Part shown: one piece after another, positions 22,342 through 37,618 of the stretch
Layout: every line of letters starts with the position of its first letter
How positions within the stretch are numbered: position 1 is the first letter of the stretch
Assembly: GCA_024689485.1 (NCBI GenBank)
Contig: JAILDK010000007.1
Span: 1-41,732, forward strand
Reading direction: 5' to 3'
Source of the DNA: Fibrobacter sp.
Lineage (GTDB): Bacteria > Fibrobacterota > Fibrobacteria > Fibrobacterales > Fibrobacteraceae
Length of the DNA stretch: 41,732 bases
Translations under genes and position numbers: made by a program
The notes under the pieces: generated by a model
Told to the model about the DNA's origin: nothing
Database searches by the model: none
Seen by the model: only the letters and a program-made list of their open reading frames with translations

Positions 22342-22776
22342 TTATTTAGAAGTTACGCTTTTCGGCTTCACACGTTTGCGCGTCAGGTCTTCTAACGTGA
22401 CGCTGTCGAGAAAGGAGCTGACGATTTGATTCAGTTCGGTCCAAAGGGGAAGCGTGGTGCAGACTTTGGAATGTTCGCAGGGCGCTGCATCGTCTTCGAG
22501 GCAGGCGACCGGGGCGAGCGTTCCTTCTGTGGCGCGTAAAATTTCGCCGACGACGTAATCTTTGGGAGCTCTGTTGAGACGGTAACCGCCTGTTTTTCCG
22601 CGTACGGCTTCAATCAGCCCTTTTTTGGAAAGAAGGGTCATGATGGCTTCGGCGTATTTTTGCGAAATGCCTTGGCGAGTCACAATGTCTTTGAGAGGAA
22701 TGAATTCGTCTTGTTGCTGTTGAGCAAGATCGATCATGACTCGCAAAGCGTAGCGTCCTTTGGTGGATACGATCAT
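22342..22776 (-). CDS. Rrf2-family transcriptional regulator with a three-cysteine cluster motif
   Basis: This encodes 144 residues: a winged-helix opening (STKGRYALRVMIDLA at 4-18), a recognition helix (QGISQKYAEAIMTLLSKKGLI at 35-55), the wing RGKTGGYRL and then C92-x7-C100-x5-C106. This resembles the [2Fe-2S]-ligating loop of IscR/NsrR (C-x5-C-x5-C) with a longer first gap. Rrf2 proteins sense Fe-S status, nitric oxide, redox or, for CymR, cysteine availability. Its position divergent from LysR and beside the sulfur island supports a sulfur or Fe-S role, which is inference. The ATG lacks a Shine-Dalgarno. Confidence 0.9.
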   Translation of the reverse strand: MIVSTKGRYALRVMIDLAQQQQDEFIPLKDIVTRQGISQKYAEAIMTLLSKKGLIEAVRGKTGGYRLNRAPKDYVVGEILRATEGTLAPVACLEDDAAPCEHSKVCTTLPLWTELNQIVSSFLDSVTLEDLTRKRVKPKSVTSK

Positions 22777-22881: not shown

Positions 22882-23808
22882 ATGACTTTACAACAACTGC
22901 GCTACGCAATCGGCATCGCTGAAACCGGGTCTTTTAACAAGGCGGCTGAAAGGCTCTATGTTTCACAGCCGTCGCTAACGGCGGCGATCCGCGATTTGGA
23001 AGATGAATTGAACATCTTGATTTTTAACCGTACCAGTCGCGGTGTCACGCTCACGAGCGAAGGCGAAGAATTCATTGCCTATTCCCGTGAACTGATGGAG
23101 CATTACGAATCCGTCCTTGAAAAGTACGGTAAAATTGGAAAGCGTAAAAAGAAGTTCGGCGTTTCGACGCAGCATTATTCGTTTGCGGTCAAGAGCTTTG
23201 TGGAAACGGTCAAACTGTTTGATACCGAAAAATACGACTTTGCCATTCGGGAAACGCGTACCAAAGAAGTCATTGAAGATGTCGCCTCCTTCAAAAGCGA
23301 TATCGGAATTCTCTACCTGAGTGATTTCAATCGGAAGGTGATTGCGAACCTGCTGGACGCCCGTGATTTGGAATTTCACAAGCTGATTGATTGTAAGGCT
23401 TATGTTTATTTGTGGAAGGGACATCCCCTGGCGGATAACAAGTCGATTACCCTGAAGCAGTTGGACGATTATCCGTGCCTTTCTTTTGAACAGGGCGATG
23501 ATGGGTCCTTTTACTTTGCCGAAGAAATTTTAAGTACAAATGAATATAAACGGACGATCAAAGCCAACGATCGTGCGACGATGCTGAATTTGATGATCGG
23601 CTTGAACGGCTACACGCTTTGCTCGGGTATTATTTGCGAAGAATTGAACGGCGATGATTTTCGCGCGGTTCCGTTCAAGGATAAGAGTGATGAAGCGCAT
23701 TCTGTGATGGAAATCGGTTATATCTGCAAACGCAATATGCTTTTGGGACTCGTCGGGGAGCGCTATGTAGAATGTTTAAAGGAATATCTGGGAAAAGTCA
23801 GTACCTGA
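22882..23808 (+). CDS. LysR-type transcriptional regulator, candidate master of the sulfur island
   Basis: This encodes 308 residues: an N-terminal winged HTH (residues 1-60; LQQLRYAIGIAETGSFNKAAERLYVSQPSLTAAIRDLEDEL, FNRTSRGVTLTSEGEEF), a linker helix and a two-lobed periplasmic-binding-like effector domain (about 90-300). LysR proteins typically activate from AT-rich interrupted dyads just upstream of -35 boxes. A 45-bp element fitting that pattern precedes four nearby transcription units, the first starting 6 bp after this gene's stop. CysB/CysR-like control of organosulfur use is therefore a good hypothesis, but the effector cannot be read from the sequence. A CxxC or other Cys sensor is not evident. 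Confidence 0.92.
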   Translation: MTLQQLRYAIGIAETGSFNKAAERLYVSQPSLTAAIRDLEDELNILIFNRTSRGVTLTSEGEEFIAYSRELMEHYESVLEKYGKIGKRKKKFGVSTQHYSFAVKSFVETVKLFDTEKYDFAIRETRTKEVIEDVASFKSDIGILYLSDFNRKVIANLLDARDLEFHKLIDCKAYVYLWKGHPLADNKSITLKQLDDYPCLSFEQGDDGSFYFAEEILSTNEYKRTIKANDRATMLNLMIGLNGYTLCSGIICEELNGDDFRAVPFKDKSDEAHSVMEIGYICKRNMLLGLVGERYVECLKEYLGKVST

Positions 23809-23864: not shown

Positions 23865-23893
23865 TTGCATTCCTTCCGATCTTATTCTATCTT
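23865..23893 (+). promoter_or_regulatory. Candidate core promoter of unit A
   Basis: TTGCAT and TATCTT are separated by 17 bp. The predicted start near 23900 gives a leader of about 245 nt before the first structural gene. The match to consensus is moderate, and the assignment rests mainly on spacing and on the operator just upstream. Confidence 0.4.
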
Positions 23894-23899
23894 AAAACC

Positions 23900-24144
23900 T
23901 ACAAGATTGATGGGAATAACAAAATGAATTGTTATTCCTGAGCATTCGAAGGAGCGCCTATGATGTGTGATAGTGACTGTCGAATGCCGAAAGGCATTCT
24001 GAAATTCAACTAGCCAGAGCCTGCTGTCCTTAAGGCTCTTATGCTAGAAATCGAGCTATAAGGATATTACAAAAAATTTGGGAAAGACCGAGGTTTTGCG
24101 AAAAAAAACCGGTTTCCCTCTATAACTAAAAGGAATTTTGACTC
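23900..24144 (+). ncRNA. Structured leader RNA of the metY-mccB-mccA operon, candidate attenuator
   Basis: Four pairings are visible. (1) GGAATAACAA/TTGTTATTCC (23913-23938), a perfect 10-bp hairpin. (2) GCATTCGA (23942-23949) with TCGAATGC (23980-23987), which encloses the leader-peptide start. (3) GAATGCC-GAAA-GGCATTC (23982-23999), a perfect 7-bp hairpin with a GNRA loop that competes with pairing 2 for the same bases. (4) CTAGC/GCTAG enclosing AGAGCC/GGCTCT (24010-24047), starting at the leader ORF stop. A further long hairpin, GGGAAA...TTTCCC with GGTTTT/AAAACC inside, occupies 24080-24118 just before the metY Shine-Dalgarno. I see no U-tract, so termination, if it occurs, would be Rho-dependent or the control would be translational. 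No known SAM, SAH or T-box motif is recognisable. Confidence 0.65.
23960..24013 (+). CDS. Met/Cys-rich leader peptide, 17 residues
   Basis: The ORF reads MMCDSDCRMPKGILKFN and stops at TAG 24011-24013. AAGGAG (23949-23954) sits 5 nt before the ATG, a better Shine-Dalgarno than most genes in this window have. Five of the first nine residues are Met or Cys (M1, M2, C3, C7, M9), far above chance, and the operon downstream makes and interconverts those two amino acids. Codons 7-10 form one arm of two mutually exclusive hairpins. By analogy with his/trp leaders and with cysteine-codon leader ORFs described in mycobacteria, ribosome stalling on scarce Cys-tRNA or Met-tRNA could switch the fold. It was missed as a gene because of its size. 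Confidence 0.65.
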   Translation: MMCDSDCRMPKGILKFN

Positions 24145-25431
24145 ATGACGACTCAGAACAAACTTCATTTCGAAACTCTCCAGATTCACGTTGGCCAGGA
24201 ACAGGCAGATCCGGCAACCGACTCCCGCTCCGTTCCTATTTACCAGACCACTTCTTATGTGTTCCATAACGCGCAGCATGCTGCAGACCGCTTTGCTTTG
24301 AAGGATGCGGGTAACGTTTATGGCCGTATCACGAATACGACCCAGGGCGTTTTGGAACAGCGTATTGCCGCTTTGGAAGGCGGTGTAGGCGCTCTCGCTG
24401 TGGCCAGTGGCGCAGCCGCGATTACCTATGCGATTACCGCTCTCGCTCACTCGGGCGATCATGTGGTGGCGCAGCGCACGGTTTACGGTGGAACCTTTAA
24501 CCTGTTACAGCACACGCTTCGCAATTACGGCATTGAAACCACTTTTGTGGATACGCATGACCTGAAGGAAGTGGAAAGCGCTGTCAAGAGCAATACGAAG
24601 CTTATCTTTATCGAAACGCTCGGCAACCCGAATTCCGACATTCCGGATATTGACGCGATTGCGGAAATCGCTCACAAGAACAAGATCCCGCTCGTGATTG
24701 ACAACACGTTCGGAACGCCGTATTTGATTCGCCCGATTGAACACGGTGCCGATATCGTGGTACATTCCGCGACCAAGTTTATCGGTGGCCACGGTACGAC
24801 TCTCGGCGGCATCACTGTGGACAGCGGTAAGTTCGATTGGGAAGCTTCGGGCAAGTTCCCGCACCTGACTGAAGTGAACCAGAGCTACGGCCTTTCCTTC
24901 ACCAAGGCAGTCGGCGCTGCGGCTTATGTCGTTTACGTGCGCACGATCCTTTTGCGCGATGAAGGTGCTGCGATTTCTCCGTTCAATGCGTTCCTTTTGC
25001 TGCAGGGAACGGAAACGCTTTCGCTTCGTCTCGAACGCCACGTGGAAAATACCAAGAAGATCTTGGATTACCTCACGCATAATCCGAAGGTTTCCCATGT
25101 GAACCATCCGAGCCTTCCGTATCATCCGGATCACAAGCTGTACCAGAAGTACTTCCCGAATGGCGGCGGTTCCATCTTTACCTTTGACATCAAGGGTGGA
25201 CAGGAAGAAGCGTTCAAGTTTATTGATAACCTGAAGATCTTCAGCCTGCTTGCGAACGTGGCCGATGTGAAGAGCTTGGTGATTCACCCGTACACGACGA
25301 CCCATGCGGAACTGACTCCGGAAGAATTGGCAGCTGCCAATATTACGCCGGCAACGATCCGCGTCTCCATTGGTACGGAACATTACGAAGACATCATTGC
25401 TGACCTGGAAAGAGGCTTTGCTGCCATCTAA
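24145..25431 (+). CDS. metY: O-acetylhomoserine sulfhydrylase-like enzyme (MetY1)
   Basis: The predicted PLP enzyme condenses O-acetylhomoserine with sulfide (homocysteine) or methanethiol (methionine). The 428 residues match the length of MetY, which is longer than MetB/MccB. Seen motifs: PIYQTTSYVF, YGRITNTTQGVLEQRIAALEGG, ASGAAAITYA, TVYGGTFNL, ETLGNPNSDIPDI, VIDNTFGTPYL and PLP lysine K211 in VHSATKFIGGHG. The extra segment around 225-260 (KFDWEASGKFPHLTEVNQSYGL...) is the MetY-specific insertion. It is the first gene of unit A after the leader RNA. AGGAA precedes its ATG. This copy is the best candidate for the true MetY among the three paralogues. Confidence 0.9.
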   Translation: MTTQNKLHFETLQIHVGQEQADPATDSRSVPIYQTTSYVFHNAQHAADRFALKDAGNVYGRITNTTQGVLEQRIAALEGGVGALAVASGAAAITYAITALAHSGDHVVAQRTVYGGTFNLLQHTLRNYGIETTFVDTHDLKEVESAVKSNTKLIFIETLGNPNSDIPDIDAIAEIAHKNKIPLVIDNTFGTPYLIRPIEHGADIVVHSATKFIGGHGTTLGGITVDSGKFDWEASGKFPHLTEVNQSYGLSFTKAVGAAAYVVYVRTILLRDEGAAISPFNAFLLLQGTETLSLRLERHVENTKKILDYLTHNPKVSHVNHPSLPYHPDHKLYQKYFPNGGGSIFTFDIKGGQEEAFKFIDNLKIFSLLANVADVKSLVIHPYTTTHAELTPEELAAANITPATIRVSIGTEHYEDIIADLERGFAAI

Positions 25432-25453: not shown

Positions 25454-26611
25454 ATGTCTATTTCGAAGTTTATTGAAACGACGCTGATTCACGGCGGCAT
25501 TGATGGAGATTCTGTAACGGGAGCGGTAAACGTTCCCATTTACCAGACCTCCACCTATAAGCAATCCGGCCTTGGCGAAAACACGGGTTGGGAATATTCC
25601 CGCACGGGAAACCCGACGCGTGCCGCTTTGGAGGCTTTGATTGCGGAACTGGAAAACGGTGTAGCGGGCTTCGCTTTTGCAAGCGGTATGGCTGCGACAT
25701 CCACGGTGCTTTCGCTCTTTCACCAGGGCGATCGCATTTTGATTTCGAGCAATGTGTATGGAGGAACCTTCCGCGTTCTGGATAAGGTCTTCAAGAATTT
25801 GGGAATCCAATATTCGATTGAAGATACAACAGACTTGGAAGCCTTGGATGCCAAGGTGACGCCGGATGTGAAAGCGTTTTTTGTGGAAAGTCCTGCAAAT
25901 CCGCTTTTGACGGTGACGGACCTTTCGGCTGTTGCGCAAATTGCCAAAAAGCACGGGATTCTGACGATTGTCGATAATACTTTCATGACTCCTTATTTGC
26001 AGCGTCCGCTGGATTTGGGAGCGGATATCGTGGTGCATAGCGCGACGAAGTATTTGGGCGGTCACAGTGATCTTGTCGCAGGTCTTGCGGTTACAAACAA
26101 CAAGGAAATTGCGGATCGCTTGGCGTTTACGCAGAATGCGATTGGCTCGGTTTTGGGACCGTTCGATTCGTTCTTGCTGATTCGTGGAATCAAAACGTTG
26201 GGTGTTCGCTTGGACCGTCATACGGAAAACGCTTTGCGCATCGCTCACTTTTTGGAATCTTCCGAAGCGGTGAAGAAGGTTTATTATCCGGGCCTTCCGA
26301 CTGCACAGGGTTACGAAATCAACAAGAAGCAGGCGAAAAATGGCGGAGCCATGATTTCGTTCGAATTGAAAGAGAATTACGACGTCCGAAAATTCTTCAA
26401 GGGTCTTCGTTTGATTTCACTCGCCGAAAGTTTGGGTGGCGTTGAAAGCCTTGTTTGCCATCCTGCTTCCATGACTCACGCATCCATTCCGAAGGAAATT
26501 CGCGAAAAAGTGGGAATTACCGACGGTTTGATCCGTTTGTCTGTGGGAATTGAAAAGGTGGATGACATTATTCTGGACTTGAACGCGGCTATTCAGGCTG
26601 CACAGGAGTAA
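25454..26611 (+). CDS. mccB: Cystathionine gamma-lyase/gamma-synthase family enzyme (MccB/MetB type)
   Basis: This 385-residue enzyme is in the size range of MccB/MetB/MetC. Seen: PIYQTSTYKQSG, the YSRTGNPTR PLP-phosphate motif (48-56), ASGMAATSTV, VYGGTFRVL, VDNTFMTPYLQRPLDLGADIVVHSATKYLGGHSD with PLP lysine K199. With the adjacent mccA-like gene it forms the reverse transsulfuration pair (homocysteine to cysteine through cystathionine) as in Bacillus mccA-mccB; cystathionine gamma-synthase activity cannot be excluded from sequence alone. AGGAG precedes its start; it is 22 nt after metY. Confidence 0.88.
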   Translation: MSISKFIETTLIHGGIDGDSVTGAVNVPIYQTSTYKQSGLGENTGWEYSRTGNPTRAALEALIAELENGVAGFAFASGMAATSTVLSLFHQGDRILISSNVYGGTFRVLDKVFKNLGIQYSIEDTTDLEALDAKVTPDVKAFFVESPANPLLTVTDLSAVAQIAKKHGILTIVDNTFMTPYLQRPLDLGADIVVHSATKYLGGHSDLVAGLAVTNNKEIADRLAFTQNAIGSVLGPFDSFLLIRGIKTLGVRLDRHTENALRIAHFLESSEAVKKVYYPGLPTAQGYEINKKQAKNGGAMISFELKENYDVRKFFKGLRLISLAESLGGVESLVCHPASMTHASIPKEIREKVGITDGLIRLSVGIEKVDDIILDLNAAIQAAQE

Positions 26612-26625
26612 ATAAGAGGCTTCGT

Positions 26626-27537
26626 ATGCACTACTATGAATCGATGCAATCTCTGATTGGCCATACTCCGCTTGTGAAAATTTCGCATGCCGGAATCCCT
26701 GAAGGTGTAAACCTGTTTGCGAAACTCGAACTGTGGAATCCGTCGGGGAGTGTCAAAGATCGCACGGGCCTTTACATGGTAAATGCCGCTTTGGAAGAGG
26801 GAACTCTGAAACCGGGCGGTACCATTGTGGAAGCGACGGCGGGCAACACGGGACTGGGAATTGCTTTTGCTGCGCTGAATCGTGGCTTGCGGGTGATTTT
26901 TGTTGTGCCGACTAAGTTCTCTCAAGAAAAGCAGACTCTTTTGCGCGCCTTGGGTGCGGAACTCATCAACACGCCTCGTGAAGAAGGCATGCTGGGTGCT
27001 GAAAAGAAGGCTGAGGAACTTTTAAAGACAATCCCTGGTTCGGTTTCGCTGCGCCAGTTCCGCAATCCGGCAAATCCACGGGCTCATTATGAAACGACGG
27101 GACCTGAAATTTATCAGGACTTGGATGGTCAAATTGATTATGTGGTTGCAGGTGCAGGCAGCGGCGGAACTTATTCGGGTATTCTCAAGTTCCTCAAGGA
27201 AAAGAATCCGAAGATCCAAGGTGTATTGGCAGATCCTGTGGGTTCCACGATGGGTGGCGGCGAACATGGCGATTACAACATCGAAGGAATCGGAAACGAT
27301 TTTATTGCCGACACCATGGATATGTCGCTGGTGGATCAGGTGATTAAAATCAATGACGACGATGCCTTTGGCGGAGCCCGAGAACTCGCTCAAAATGAAG
27401 GGATTATCGCTGGATCTTCTTCGGGGGCGGCCTTTACGGCTGCAAAGAAGTTGATCGCTTCGGGCGCGCGTGGAAACATTGTGTTTGTGGCACCCGATCG
27501 CGGTGACCGTTACTTTAGCAAGGGCCTGTATATCTAG
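26626..27537 (+). CDS. mccA: Cysteine synthase / O-acetylserine-dependent cystathionine beta-synthase (CysK/MccA type)
   Basis: This encodes a 303-residue fold-type II PLP enzyme. Seen: the PLP lysine motif NPSGSVKDRTG (K44), EATAGNTGLGIA (69-80), the phosphate-binding VAGAGSGGTYSG (about 180) and the closing GIIAGSSSGAA. SVSLRQFRNPANPRAHYETTGPEI is the substrate-loop signature of this family. The adjacent mccB homologue favours MccA (O-acetylserine plus homocysteine giving cystathionine) over a plain cysteine synthase, but discriminating residues were not checked. It lies 14 nt after mccB, so the genes are co-translated. It is one of five PLP sulfur enzymes in the island. Confidence 0.88.
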   Translation: MHYYESMQSLIGHTPLVKISHAGIPEGVNLFAKLELWNPSGSVKDRTGLYMVNAALEEGTLKPGGTIVEATAGNTGLGIAFAALNRGLRVIFVVPTKFSQEKQTLLRALGAELINTPREEGMLGAEKKAEELLKTIPGSVSLRQFRNPANPRAHYETTGPEIYQDLDGQIDYVVAGAGSGGTYSGILKFLKEKNPKIQGVLADPVGSTMGGGEHGDYNIEGIGNDFIADTMDMSLVDQVIKINDDDAFGGARELAQNEGIIAGSSSGAAFTAAKKLIASGARGNIVFVAPDRGDRYFSKGLYI

Positions 27538-27559: not shown

Positions 27560-28117
27560 ATGGCAAGAGTCAAATTTATCGAATCTGTTGAAGAAGCCCA
27601 GGGCAAGGCGAAGGAAGCCTATGAATATCTGGTTTCTGCAGGAAAGATTACCAACATGAAGCGCGCCTTGCTTCAGGATTACGCAACCTATGATGCCTTT
27701 ATGGGTTGGTACACCAGCTGGAATCGCCTTGTGGAAGTGGTGGGGCTTCGTGCTTCGACCATTTACGCTCATGCAATTTCGACGACCAATAGCTGCCAGC
27801 TTTGCTCGCTATTCTTCATTAGCGATTTGAAGGGTTTGGGAATTGACCCGAAGAGCTTCAAGCTCGATGAAAAGGAAGGCTTGCTGGTTGAACTCGCGCA
27901 TCAGATTGTGAAGGACCCGACCAAGGTTTCGGATGAACTGATTGCGAACTTGAAGAAGTTCTTTAACGATAGCGAATTGGTGACGGTTGTCGGCTTTGCA
28001 GCCCAGATGATTGCGACGAACAATTTCAACTCGGTTTTGAAAATCGATGTGGATCAACGTTTGCTGCCGATCGTGGGTGAATTTAAGCCTGCAACGTGGC
28101 GTGAAAACATCAAGTAA
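27560..28117 (+). CDS. AhpD-like/carboxymuconolactone decarboxylase-family protein
   Basis: This encodes 185 residues, an all-helical fold of the AhpD/CMD type. The redox motif is C79-Q-L-C82 in SCQLCSLFF. In peroxidase-type members the CxxC is followed by a His about three residues on; here that position is Phe, and the preceding Glu is not obvious, so classic alkyl-hydroperoxidase relay chemistry is unlikely. It may be a thiol-disulfide or reductant partner of the sulfur enzymes. AAGGAG precedes its ATG. It lies between mccA and the solute-binding lipoprotein in unit A. Confidence 0.82.
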   Translation: MARVKFIESVEEAQGKAKEAYEYLVSAGKITNMKRALLQDYATYDAFMGWYTSWNRLVEVVGLRASTIYAHAISTTNSCQLCSLFFISDLKGLGIDPKSFKLDEKEGLLVELAHQIVKDPTKVSDELIANLKKFFNDSELVTVVGFAAQMIATNNFNSVLKIDVDQRLLPIVGEFKPATWRENIK

Positions 28118-28133
28118 GCTTGTGAAATTGACG

Positions 28134-29150
28134 ATGAAGAACAGTTGTAAGATTTATTTGACCGCCTTGATCGCCTTTGGAATTTCCCTGCTCGTCGGAG
28201 CCTGCAATGGGAATGAAAAGTCTCAATTTAAGTTTGGGACTTTGGAACTTCCCATTTTGGATGGTTCTTTGTGCGGAGCGCCTTTCTATGTAGCTAAGGA
28301 AAAGGGATTCTTTGCCGAAGAAGGCATTGACGCCAAACTGATCGCGGCTGACGGTGAAACCCGTAAGCTGGGACTCAGCAAGGGCACCTATGCTTTGACG
28401 AATTCGGACTTTCAATTTTTCCAGGCGATTGAAAATGGCGTGGACATCAAGATTGTCGATGGCATTCACATTGGATGCATCAAGGTCTTGGTGAAAAAGG
28501 GTTCCCCCTATGAGAAAGCCTCTGATTTGAAGGGAAAAAAGATTGCCGTCGACGAAATCGGTGGTACTCCGCATCAAGCGGCAAGTCTTTGGCTTTCTTT
28601 AGGTGGCGTTTCGACTAAGCCGGAAGACCATCAGGTAGAATTTTTACCGTATGCGGATGGTAATTTGGCGCTCGAAGCTTTGGAACAGGGGCAGATTGAT
28701 GCGGCCGCCATTTGGGACCCGCTCGCCTCTGCTTACGAAAAATCGGGCAAAGCCGATGTGATTATGGATGTGGCGACGGATCCGGTTTTCGATGGCCGTT
28801 ACTGTTGCTTTATCTATGTGTCTGCTAAGATTTTGAAGGAAGAACCTGCAAAGATTGCGGCTCTTTTACGAGCCATCCACAAAGCGGAAAGCTGGATTGC
28901 AGAACATCCTGAAGAAACGGTGGAGATTATTGCCGAAGGCAAGTATTCCGAAATTGAAGACAAGCCGCTCGCGGTTGAACTGATCAAGAGCTACGTCTAC
29001 ACTTCGGTGGAACAGCGGAAGGCTTTGGGTCGAGACGTCAAGGGTGATTTGCGCTACTTCAGTGAACAGCTCAAGAAGATTGGTTACCTGACTCAGGATC
29101 CCGATGCGTTTGTGACGAATCTTTATGAAGAAGTTGATTTGAACAAATAA
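28134..29150 (+). CDS. ABC transporter solute-binding lipoprotein 1 (SsuA/TauA/NMT1-like)
   Basis: This encodes 338 residues with lipobox VGAC (Cys24). The fold motifs fit SsuA/TauA/ThiY-like periplasmic binding proteins: LDGSLCGAPFYVAKEKGFFAEEGID (44-67), GLSKGTYALTNSDFQFF, DLKGKKIAVDEIGGTPHQAASLW, AIWDPLASAYEKSG. Internal cysteines C47, C115, C224 and C225 are all conserved in the paralogue at 37650 and are unusual for sulfonate binders. I chose the ATG of MKNSC; a GTG 4 codons earlier is possible. It closes unit A. Its permease and ATPase are in unit B, so they work as one importer. Confidence 0.88.
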   Translation: MKNSCKIYLTALIAFGISLLVGACNGNEKSQFKFGTLELPILDGSLCGAPFYVAKEKGFFAEEGIDAKLIAADGETRKLGLSKGTYALTNSDFQFFQAIENGVDIKIVDGIHIGCIKVLVKKGSPYEKASDLKGKKIAVDEIGGTPHQAASLWLSLGGVSTKPEDHQVEFLPYADGNLALEALEQGQIDAAAIWDPLASAYEKSGKADVIMDVATDPVFDGRYCCFIYVSAKILKEEPAKIAALLRAIHKAESWIAEHPEETVEIIAEGKYSEIEDKPLAVELIKSYVYTSVEQRKALGRDVKGDLRYFSEQLKKIGYLTQDPDAFVTNLYEEVDLNK

Positions 29151-29186
29151 TTTTCCATCAGAACTTTCGAGTGAAGTAAACCAGGC

Positions 29187-29213
29187 CCACGGATATTTAT
29201 CCGTGGTTTTTTT
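29187..29213 (+). terminator. Rho-independent terminator closing unit A
   Basis: CCACGGAT (29187-29194) pairs perfectly with ATCCGTGG (29199-29206) around ATTT, followed by seven T. It ends unit A before the next copy of the operator. Confidence 0.92.
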
Positions 29214-29234
29214 AATTGAAAATTAACGGCGATG

Positions 29235-29279
29235 TCATAAGAAAAAACTATAAACCCGCATAAGAATTAAGTATTGGAC
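29235..29279 (+). promoter_or_regulatory. Sulfur-island operator and promoter, copy B
   Basis: Blocks: TCATAAGAAAAAACT, ATAAACCCGCATA, AGAATTAAG, TATTGGAC, aligned gap-free to copies A, C and D. TTGGAC (29274-29279) serves as -35; the expected -10 position 18 bp on is TACCTT (29298-29303), a weak match, which suggests dependence on an activator. It drives the permease gene at 29331. Confidence 0.72.
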
Positions 29280-29330
29280 GAGAGCCTGATCCGCTTCTAC
29301 CTTTTGCGCGTGAAAAAGTAGGAGAGTTTC

Positions 29331-30308
29331 ATGAAAATATTATGGACGATTTCTGGATTTGTAATCGCCTTTTTGGTGAATCTGTTTTTTCCGCAAGTCG
29401 CTGAAACTGTGCGGATCAAAGAATATGTTTTAGGCGGATTTCGAGTAGATGATAATTTGGCATACCGTTTGGTGTTGATGGCCATCATCGCTTATTACGT
29501 TGCCTATTCGATTTTTTTGATCCTTCGCAAGTCGAATGGAAACCGTGCCGTCAAGTTTTATGCGGGAGCCAAGTTCCGCTTTGCGATGGGAATTGCGCTT
29601 GCCGCGTGGGATGTTCTTGGGACAAAGCTGCTGATTTTGCCGCAGCCTTTTTTCCCAGGGCCTGCCATCATTATGGACGCTTTTATCGGCGATACGGAAT
29701 TCATTTTGCGGAATACGCTGTATTCGCTTCGACTTTTTGCGGCAGGATTTTCGACGGGCGTGTTGACGGGAATTGTAACGGGCTTGCTGATTGGATGGTA
29801 TCCGAAAGCGCGTTACTGGATTTTGCCGGTGCTCAACATTTGCGGTGTGATTCCTGCGGTGGCGTGGATGCCTTTTGCGATCACGCTGTTTCCGACTTCG
29901 TTTGCGGCGGCGACTTTCTTGATTGCAATCTGCTCTTGGTTCCCGGTGGCGACGATGACAGCAGATGGGGTGCAGGGAACGCCGAAGGCGTTGTTTGAAC
30001 TTTCGCGCACTTTTGGTGCGGGGCAACTGTATCAGATTTTCCACATTGCGATTCCGCATGCAATGCCTCAGATTTTTACGGGAATTATGACGGCTGCTGC
30101 TTTTGGATTTACGACGCTTGTCATGGCCGAAATGATGGGGCAGCCGGGCGGTCTTGGCTATTACATCAACACGTCAAAGGTTTGGAGCGCGTATTACAAA
30201 GTCTTTGCGGCGATAGTCGTAATGGCGGTTCTGTTCTCTGCGATTTTGAAGGTTGTTGGCTCGGTGCAACGTTATGTGCTCCGTTGGCAGAAAGGTGTTG
30301 TTCGATAG
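29331..30308 (+). CDS. ABC transporter permease (SsuC/TauC-like)
   Basis: This is a 325-residue inner-membrane permease. Two extra N-terminal helices (about 1-65) precede a standard BPD_transp_1 core (about 130-325) with LRNTLYSLRLFAAGFSTGVLTG and an EAA-type loop region (SRTFGAGQLYQIFHIAIPHAMPQIFTG at about 215-245). The N-terminal extension is longer than in many SsuC proteins. It pairs with the ATPase 9 nt downstream and presumably with the solute-binding lipoproteins of units A and C. AGGAG-like sequence lies before the ATG. Confidence 0.9.
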   Translation: MKILWTISGFVIAFLVNLFFPQVAETVRIKEYVLGGFRVDDNLAYRLVLMAIIAYYVAYSIFLILRKSNGNRAVKFYAGAKFRFAMGIALAAWDVLGTKLLILPQPFFPGPAIIMDAFIGDTEFILRNTLYSLRLFAAGFSTGVLTGIVTGLLIGWYPKARYWILPVLNICGVIPAVAWMPFAITLFPTSFAAATFLIAICSWFPVATMTADGVQGTPKALFELSRTFGAGQLYQIFHIAIPHAMPQIFTGIMTAAAFGFTTLVMAEMMGQPGGLGYYINTSKVWSAYYKVFAAIVVMAVLFSAILKVVGSVQRYVLRWQKGVVR

Positions 30309-36274: not shown

Positions 36275-37618
36275 ATGCCAAATAAAGAATCTAAAAAGTC
36301 AAAAGTTATTTCCACAGATATTTCCAATCCAGCAAATTGGAATTTCGGCACCCAATGCCTGCAGGCGGGTTGGAAACCGAAAGTCGGCGAGCCTCGTGTT
36401 TTGCCGATTTTTCAGTCCACCACTTACAAGTATGAAGATGTGGATGAAGTCGAACGTCTTTTCGCTTTGAAACAATCCGGTAACAAGTACACGCGTACAG
36501 GGAACCCGACGGTTGCCGCATTCGAAAGTAAAATCACCGAGTTGGAAGGCGGCGTAGGTGCTGTGGCAACGGCCTCAGGACAGTCGGCAGTCCTTCTCGC
36601 CATTTCGAATTTGGTGAAGGCTGGCGATCACATTGTGGCGTCGAAGGCTGTGTACGGTGGAACTTATACGCTGCTGGATGTGCGCCTTTCTAAACTCGGC
36701 GTCGAAACGACCTTTATTGACCCGGAAGCTTCGATTGCAGAACTTCGCAAAGCGTTCCGCCCGAATACAAAATTGATCTTCGTCGAAACGATTGGAAACC
36801 CGGCGCTCGGCGTTTTGGATTTTGAAAAGTTCTCGAAACTCGCCAAAGAATTTGACGTGCCTTTCCTTGTGGATAACACGCTTGCGACGCCGTTCTTGGT
36901 GAAGCCCTTGAAGCACGGTGCAAATGTTGTCATCCATTCTGCAACCAAATACATTGACGGTCATGCAATCGCTCTAGGCGGTGTCGTGATCGATGGTGGT
37001 AATTACAACTGGAATAATGGAAAATTTCCGGATTTTGTGAATCCTGATGTGCAGTATGCCAATACATCTTATACGGAAAAGTTTGGCCGTTCTGCCTACA
37101 TTGTCAAAGCACGAGCTCAGTTCCTGCGCGATTTCGGGGCAACTTTGAGCCCGTTCAATGCATTCCTTTTGAATTTGGGCCTTGAAACGCTTCATTTGCG
37201 CATGCCGCAACACAGTTCAAATGCCTTGGCTTTGGCGGAATATCTTTCCAAGCATCCGGCGGTAAACTGGGTGAATTATCCGGCTCTCCAATCGAGTCCG
37301 AATCGCAAACGCGTTCGCAAGTATTTTGATTATCCAGGTGGCAGTGGCGTGCTTACCTTTGGACTGAAAGGGGGCAAGGCAGCAATCCGTTCGTTTGTGA
37401 AAGCATTGAAGGTTGCGGCGTTGGTCGTGCATGTGGGCGATGCCCGCACAAGCGTATTGCATCCGGCAACTAGCACGCATTCCCAGCTTTCCGCAAAAGA
37501 TAGGCTTGCCGCAGGGATTCCGGATGATATGATTCGCGTATCGGTCGGCATTGAAGATCCACGTGATATTATCGCGGATTTTGAACAAGCGATTCAAGCG
37601 AGTTCAACAAAGCATTAA
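36275..37618 (+). CDS. O-acetylhomoserine sulfhydrylase-like enzyme 3
   Basis: This encodes 447 residues from the ATG of MPNKESKKSK, chosen because AAGGAG lies just upstream; an earlier ATG at 36224 would overlap the ATPase gene. Seen: FGTQCLQAGWKP, PIFQSTTYKYEDVDEVERLF, YTRTGNPTVAAFESKITELEGG, ASGQSAVLLAI, VYGGTYTLL, VDNTLATPFLVKPLKHGANVVIHSATKYIDGHA with PLP lysine K225. It carries the MetY-length insertion and a charged N-terminal extension of about 20 residues. It is the third MetY-type paralogue and clearly diverged from the other two. Substrate unknown; a sulfhydrylase or a methionine/homocysteine gamma-lyase are both possible. Confidence 0.85.
   Translation: MPNKESKKSKVISTDISNPANWNFGTQCLQAGWKPKVGEPRVLPIFQSTTYKYEDVDEVERLFALKQSGNKYTRTGNPTVAAFESKITELEGGVGAVATASGQSAVLLAISNLVKAGDHIVASKAVYGGTYTLLDVRLSKLGVETTFIDPEASIAELRKAFRPNTKLIFVETIGNPALGVLDFEKFSKLAKEFDVPFLVDNTLATPFLVKPLKHGANVVIHSATKYIDGHAIALGGVVIDGGNYNWNNGKFPDFVNPDVQYANTSYTEKFGRSAYIVKARAQFLRDFGATLSPFNAFLLNLGLETLHLRMPQHSSNALALAEYLSKHPAVNWVNYPALQSSPNRKRVRKYFDYPGGSGVLTFGLKGGKAAIRSFVKALKVAALVVHVGDARTSVLHPATSTHSQLSAKDRLAAGIPDDMIRVSVGIEDPRDIIADFEQAIQASSTKH

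Follow-up and report, generated by a model that had tools for sequence, protein, structure and literature searches.

Attenuators of the Trp and His type combine a leader ORF with alternative hairpins, the choice between which is made by the position of the ribosome. In Actinobacteria, leader peptides with cysteine codons have been described upstream of cys and cbs operons (Seliverstov et al., 2005, PMC1262725). Here, we consider a leader upstream of the metY-mccB-mccA operon in a 41,732 bp stretch of DNA from Fibrobacter sp. (the window), which an earlier interpretation made from the letters alone (hereinafter, the sequence-only reading) had taken for an attenuator responding to sulfur amino acids. 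Comparison with relatives makes it very probable that the locus encodes a conserved leader peptide that is translated and serves sulfur amino acid operons. According to the same comparison, the conserved feature is C/x-R-M encoded with CGA-AUG, not the richness in Met and Cys.

The 17-codon leader ORF MMCDSDCRMPKGILKFN occupies positions 23960..24013 (ATG at 23960 to TAG at 24013) and is preceded, at 5 nt spacing, by the Shine-Dalgarno (SD) sequence AAGGAG (23949..23954), which is invariant in metY-type relatives. Its CGA-AUG dicodon (23981..23986) is the invariant core and the proposed pause site. These features and the hairpins around them are all on the forward strand. Hairpin 1 (23913..23938; 10 bp, GGAATAACAA/TTGTTATTCC) is a computed fold that varies in sequence and has pairing versions in relatives. 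The segment GCATTCGA (23942..23949), invariant in metY-type leaders, is a possible partner of TCGAATGC at 23980-23987. Hairpin 2, GAATGCC-GAAA-GGCATTC (23982..23999; arms 23982-23988 and 23993-23999), covers the dicodon. The stop-codon hairpin A:B (24010..24047; outer stem CTAGC/GCTAG, inner stem AGAGCC/GGCTCT) overlaps an alternative hairpin B:C (24025..24066; TGTCCTTAAGGCTC/GAGCTATAAGGATA). A computed hairpin 4 lacking a U-tract (24080..24118), with a similar stem in relatives, lies ahead of the metY ribosome-binding site. The ORF, the SD sequence and its spacing, the GCATTCGA/TCGAATGC complementarity, hairpin 2, and the nested hairpin from the stop codon had all been located correctly by the sequence-only reading. 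The leader-region fold is stronger than those of 200/200 dinucleotide shuffles (z = -4.3). A terminator scan of the window's leader region yielded no U-tract terminator, as had been noted before, and in the window and eight loci no Rfam model, SAM riboswitch and T-box included, matched at the gathering threshold.

The gene proposed as regulated, metY (24145..25431, forward strand), encodes O-acetylhomoserine sulfhydrylase (TIGR01326, 603.5 bits, above the cut-off). It is followed on the same strand by a cystathionine gamma-lyase/synthase-like, mccB-like gene (25454..26611; PF01053, E = 8.9e-157; best NCBIfam equivalogs below cut-off) and a cysteine synthase/cystathionine beta-synthase-like, mccA-like gene (26626..27537; PF00291; cysKM family below cut-off). 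Just after the metY genes, at 28047-30308, are genes for an NMT1/THI5-like binding protein and an ABC permease, for which the nearest models are SaoP, nitrate, taurine, and sulfonate; the transporter may take up an organosulfur compound. A second PLP enzyme of Cys/Met metabolism, 44% identical to MetY, is encoded at 36389-37597. Upstream of the leader lies a LysR family regulator gene (22882..23808, forward strand; PF00126/PF03466).

A sigma-70-type promoter TTGCAT-17-TATCTT is predicted at 23865..23893 of the forward strand, with a predicted start near 23900. It was not among the matches of a plain consensus promoter scan; relatives have TTGACA/TTGATT-17-TATYTT at the same place. This predicted promoter sits upstream of the leader ORF, in line with the sequence-only reading. 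A candidate operator of the Rrf2 type (CymR/IscR-like), CCTACAAGATTGATGGG, is located at 23898..23914 on the same strand. The respective box, CCTAY-N7-RTRGG, occurs upstream of metY in 42/44 Fibrobacteraceae and 26/65 other loci, the reversed control giving 0/44 and 2/65. The box is present in Clostridial loci such as L054, L088, and L108; in Clostridia it overlaps the -35 element, and Rrf2 genes are found near many of these metY loci. In the window, the candidate trans-acting partner of the box is an Rrf2 family regulator (22342..22776, reverse strand; PF02082, E = 1.1e-38), which scores above the cut-off of rrf2_super and below those of the CymR and IscR models. As a shared promoter element of metY genes in two phyla, the box probably marks a candidate CymR/IscR-like regulon.

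Relatives in Fibrobacteraceae were collected by a MetY protein search of 111 genomes and GTDB contigs, and the upstream regions were aligned. Of the 36 non-redundant loci, 32 have a leader ORF with an SD sequence ahead of metY, and no such ORF was obtained in the reverse-strand control, for which 110 regions were scanned; the recurrence of the leader ORF is far beyond chance. The alignment of metY-type relatives shows strong conservation of the promoter, the box CCTACAAGATTGATAGG, GCATTCGAAGGAGCGCCTATG, the ORF, and hairpin 2. Their peptides (MISDCRMPRGILKTN, MSTECRMPRGILKTN, MSSDCRMPRGILKTN, and similar) differ by conservative D/E and K/R changes and an in-frame 6-nt indel, the two extra codons being present in the window and its nearest relative. 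The sequence-only reading had stressed that five of the first nine residues are Met or Cys and had expected relatives to keep these codons. The count is right for the window (M, M, C, C, M) and an ORF is indeed retained upstream of metY, but the run occurs only in the window and its nearest relative, whereas others begin with MISDCRM, MSTECRM, or MSSDCRM, so that only C-R-M or x-R-M is kept.

By pattern search, the window's leader type is present in 36/111 Fibrobacteraceae genomes, mostly ahead of metY. In two genomes (G018 and G063) the leader is found ahead of an SDR gene, followed in L157 by a cysK-like gene, and in two others (G028 and G055) ahead of a cysK-like gene. Hairpin 2 is kept in the metY leader type and the SDR-cysK leaders, with a variable loop and, in cysK leaders, an altered last pair. 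At the GCATTCGA position, L157 and L222 carry GCTTTCGA. A second Fibrobacter leader type (MSCRMCNRTEQSWKSQA, MRCRMCNQAEGGRA, MSCESDCRMRVQA, and others) has CGA-ATG in all cases and shows no GCATTCGA partner and no evident A/B/C switch. The 8-bp pairing of GCATTCGA with TCGAATGC, previously proposed as one side of the switch, is not supported in this role: it shows no covariation, is mismatched in the SDR-cysK operon, and occurs neither in Clostridia nor in Fibrobacter leaders of the second type.

Upstream regions of Clostridial metY genes harbor short SD-preceded ORFs containing or ending in GRM, e.g., MRILFQRLLRQNFRFGRM. The consensus over 43 distinct Clostridial leaders is L[VLI]RxN[FYW]RxGRM, followed by Cys or a stop; N (42/43), [FYW] (43/43), and G (42/43) are conserved, with synonymous codons free except CGA. 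As this table had been preselected by a pattern with an Arg/Ser-like codon at -3 and CGAATG, the 43/43 occurrence of CGA in it is not independent evidence. Three Clostridial leaders (L240, L241, L310) precede a MetQ/NlpA lipoprotein gene (PF03180, tested for L240 and L241), and one of these follows a metI-like permease gene, as judged by eye. In Faecalibacterium (L062, L063, L066, L070), the leaders end in repeated in-frame CGA-ATG (MPRMCERM*, ARMCTRM*, AARM*) before an intrinsic terminator. In two loci, the GRM leader is itself preceded by a second, Met/Cys-rich leader ORF for the same gene (MIKPYTTIIMMWMCMWICQMCMCLC... at -324 from metY in L081; MKQSVFSTAMNMCMCMMMCASGFC... at -359 in L092), i.e., two tandem leader controls on one metY.

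The distribution of CGA-ATG leaders is patchy. The class-level sample of 291 Clostridial-class genomes contained 25 CGA matches, an order-level sample of 295 genomes had real leaders in only two, and among the loci fetched from a phylum-level sample of 399 a real leader was found only in the centre genome. Chance CGA matches occur away from metY (L244, L309, L311-L313, L326, L327, L330), and the 30 metY loci examined in Spirochaetota included no convincing CGA-ATG leader. A Treponemataceae MAG (L064) has a leader, MKNYFEKLVRENFRNGVMCCCCF, that resembles the Clostridial peptide but encodes GVM with GTC-ATG. MetY of the window is about 70-77% identical to most Clostridial records, and L052, L055, L075, L078, L079, L080, and L098 have a LysR gene, 62-69% identical to that of the window, at 174-394 nt ahead of metY. 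These identities, together with the LysR-metY order common to both groups, suggest transfer of the metY module among rumen and gut bacteria.

The codon constraint was assessed on unselected data, that is, on metY upstream regions chosen by the MetY protein alone and on a codon-blind pattern. In the former, CGA encodes the Arg preceding Met in every such leader ORF, 32/32 in Fibrobacteraceae and 26/26 elsewhere. The same output also contains non-CGA cases: the end of the LysR gene that lies upstream, L086, a further RM in L048, and an AGG at the start of the L076 ORF; one subgroup (L072, L108) has CTG-ATG instead. The codon-blind pattern N[FY]R.G[R]M was applied to the 291 genomes: among the loci fetched, 13/13 with CGA-ATG are situated 24-86 nt upstream of metY, compared with 0/17 with other codons (exact probability about 8e-9, assuming random labels and independent loci, although relatives are not fully independent). 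Among Arg-Met pairs encoded by long ORFs of the same loci, only 3/65 and 5/82 have CGA as the Arg codon, and the CGA share of Arg codons within metY is 0.6% and 2.5%. For the Arg three codons before the dicodon in the same Clostridial leaders, all six codons occur. Additional CGAATG copies in Faecalibacterium leaders are in frame in 6/6 cases. Complements of CGAATG are not enriched nearby in Clostridial leaders; hence RNA pairing does not explain the hexamer there, and conservation for base pairing is possible only in the window's clade. Taken together, the CGA bias, the free codons elsewhere, the in-frame copies, and the lack of complement enrichment indicate that the constraint acts on the codon pair as read by ribosomes. 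Anticodons found among tRNA-Arg of the window's genome are ACG, CCG, TCT, and CCT (a few long tRNAs were unread), and none of the anticodons read is TCG. Thus, CGA is expected to be decoded by tRNA-Arg(ICG), and I34:A3 decoding is described as inefficient in PMC3711424, citing Curran (1995).

Downstream of the ORF in the window's clade, segment B (the 3' arm of the stop-codon hairpin) has two possible partners, the preceding segment A and the following segment C, and the three segments change together: AAGCC-GGCTT-AAGCC in most loci, GAGCC-GGCTC-GAGCC in L013 and L017, GAGCC-GGCTC-GAGCT in the window, and AAAGTC/GACTTT in L004. By covariation, A:B and B:C are mutually exclusive alternatives. 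Thus the sequence-only reading was right to expect exclusive folds, but the covarying switch lies further downstream than it supposed, where it saw only a nested hairpin. In silico folds of metY-type examples predict A:B with a ribosome placed at CRM and B:C with one placed at the stop codon; L157 is predicted to form B:C in both states, and no comparable B:C element is present in L028, L212, and L220. As an output, sequestration of the metY SD was rejected, its predicted accessibility hardly changing between the two states (0.44 and 0.51). Since no SD masking is seen in the folds, we infer Rho-dependent termination or RNA stability as the output; the sequence-only reading had suggested Rho-dependent or translational control, either of which may apply in the window.

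Downstream of some Clostridial leaders there is a true intrinsic terminator, and its 5' arm can pair with a segment that starts about 5-9 nt past the AUG (read by eye). In L048 and in L072, where the dicodon is CTG-ATG, the free RNA is predicted to antiterminate, and a ribosome on the dicodon raises the terminator probability from 0.12 to 0.89-0.94 and from 0 to 1.0, respectively. In L108, the terminator is restored in silico only with a slightly more advanced ribosome, and the folds of other terminator-type loci contain it in nearly all states or, as predicted for five of them (L054, L062, L063, L066, L070), in every state. Since most Clostridial leaders have only a spacer of 37-102 nt to the gene with no visible structure, the output may vary between lineages.

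We lean towards a model in which a pause at CGA-AUG is the regulatory event, the short leader gene controlling the sulfur amino acid operon in cis. The dicodon would be a programmed slow step: CGA would be read by tRNA-Arg(ICG) through a poor inosine-adenosine wobble pair, and while CGA occupies the P site the ribosome would therefore be slow to decode the AUG that follows. Such slowed decoding would be sensitive to sulfur amino acid status, either through the supply of Met-tRNA or through a ligand sensed with the nascent chain of Clostridia; the leader may sense Met or Cys. A ribosome pausing at CRM in the window would leave A:B free to form, whereas one reaching the stop codon would block A, so that B:C forms, and this choice would determine whether transcription or translation proceeds into metY-mccB-mccA. 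The decision would probably be made by Rho or at the level of RNA stability, with no intrinsic terminator involved. The same pause site in some Clostridia would lie about 5-9 nt before the antiterminator arm of a true intrinsic terminator. The promoter-level Rrf2 regulator probably acts in addition. More tentatively, and with somewhat less than even probability, the synonymous codon choice itself may be the sensor, the I:A-decoded CGA slowing the ribosome at Met and the dicodon, common to Fibrobacterota and Clostridia, acting on sulfur amino acid genes by way of downstream RNA switches that are unrelated to each other.

The association of the leader with sulfur amino acid genes (metY, cysK-containing operons, Clostridial metQ) agrees with the attenuator of the sequence-only reading, but the lack of a conserved Met/Cys-rich run weakens its classical form, in which a shortage of charged tRNA-Met or tRNA-Cys would make the ribosome stall at tandem Met/Cys codons, CGA being incidental. 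The window ORF would suit such a mechanism, as would the Cys after RM in 20/43 Clostridial leaders and the separate Met/Cys-rich leaders (MKQSVFSTAMNMCMCMMMC, MTMWMCC) ahead of metY in some Clostridia, with a terminator in L072 and L108. However, the window's relatives keep only CRM, 17/43 Clostridial leaders stop directly after RM, examples like MKHWMEALIRANYRFGRM contain no Cys at all, and 58/58 CGA is not expected of an incidental codon; we consider starvation attenuation unlikely. Arrest at RM of a nascent peptide of the TnaC/SpeFL kind, with Met, SAM, Cys, or another sulfur metabolite bound in the exit tunnel, has a similarly low probability. It would account for the strong peptide conservation in the 43 pattern-selected Clostridial leaders, many of which end in M-stop, and, once arrested, the ribosome would sit over the antiterminator arm of L048 and L072; but Fibrobacter peptides share only xRM with the Clostridial peptide, and CGA-AUG recurs at Faecalibacterium leader ends without the peptide context (MPRMCERM*, ARMCTRM*).

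That CGAAUG is an RNA-binding site or a riboswitch piece and the ORF accidental is highly improbable. The same hexamer does occur in two phyla, within hairpins in the window's clade, yet SD and start are conserved, the peptide is kept across synonymous changes, all six extra hexamers are in frame, the complement is not enriched, and no Rfam family matches. If the codon-pair model is correct, regulation is set by which synonymous codon is used and not only by which amino acid, and a single silent mutation should break the switch. Rumen and gut bacteria would then also have a further control of methionine and cysteine synthesis, of which we found no description, at genes where no known riboswitch matches.

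In Rfam, Pfam, NCBIfam, and the open-access literature we found no known family matching the leader; ten related peptides of at least 20 aa had no NCBIfam or Pfam matches, and full-text searches with peptide strings returned unrelated matches only. The leader serves the same pathway and purpose as the S-box riboswitch and Cys T-box of Clostridial sulfur genes (PMC2940859), but it matches no Rfam family and includes a translated ORF. It resembles ligand-dependent arrest peptides of the TnaC type (PMC8429421) in having a conserved C-terminal motif, often followed by the stop codon, and differs from them in the invariant synonymous codon and the sulfur genes, with no sequence similarity noted; the peptide at the proposed arrest site is conserved in the pattern-selected Clostridial set and reduced to xRM in Fibrobacter. 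With Trp/His-type attenuators it shares, by comparison, the SD-preceded leader ORF, the mutually exclusive hairpins, and, in some Clostridial relatives, intrinsic terminators, but it has no conserved tandem run of regulatory codons and, in Fibrobacter, no U-tract. The Actinobacterial cysteine leaders (PMC1262725) are likewise short translated ORFs upstream of sulfur amino acid genes with no conserved intrinsic terminator, and Rho has been suggested for them. Theirs are Cys-codon runs near the stop, which were not found in the window ORF or its aligned relatives, whereas the present leaders retain just x-Arg(CGA)-Met and the exclusive folds covary.
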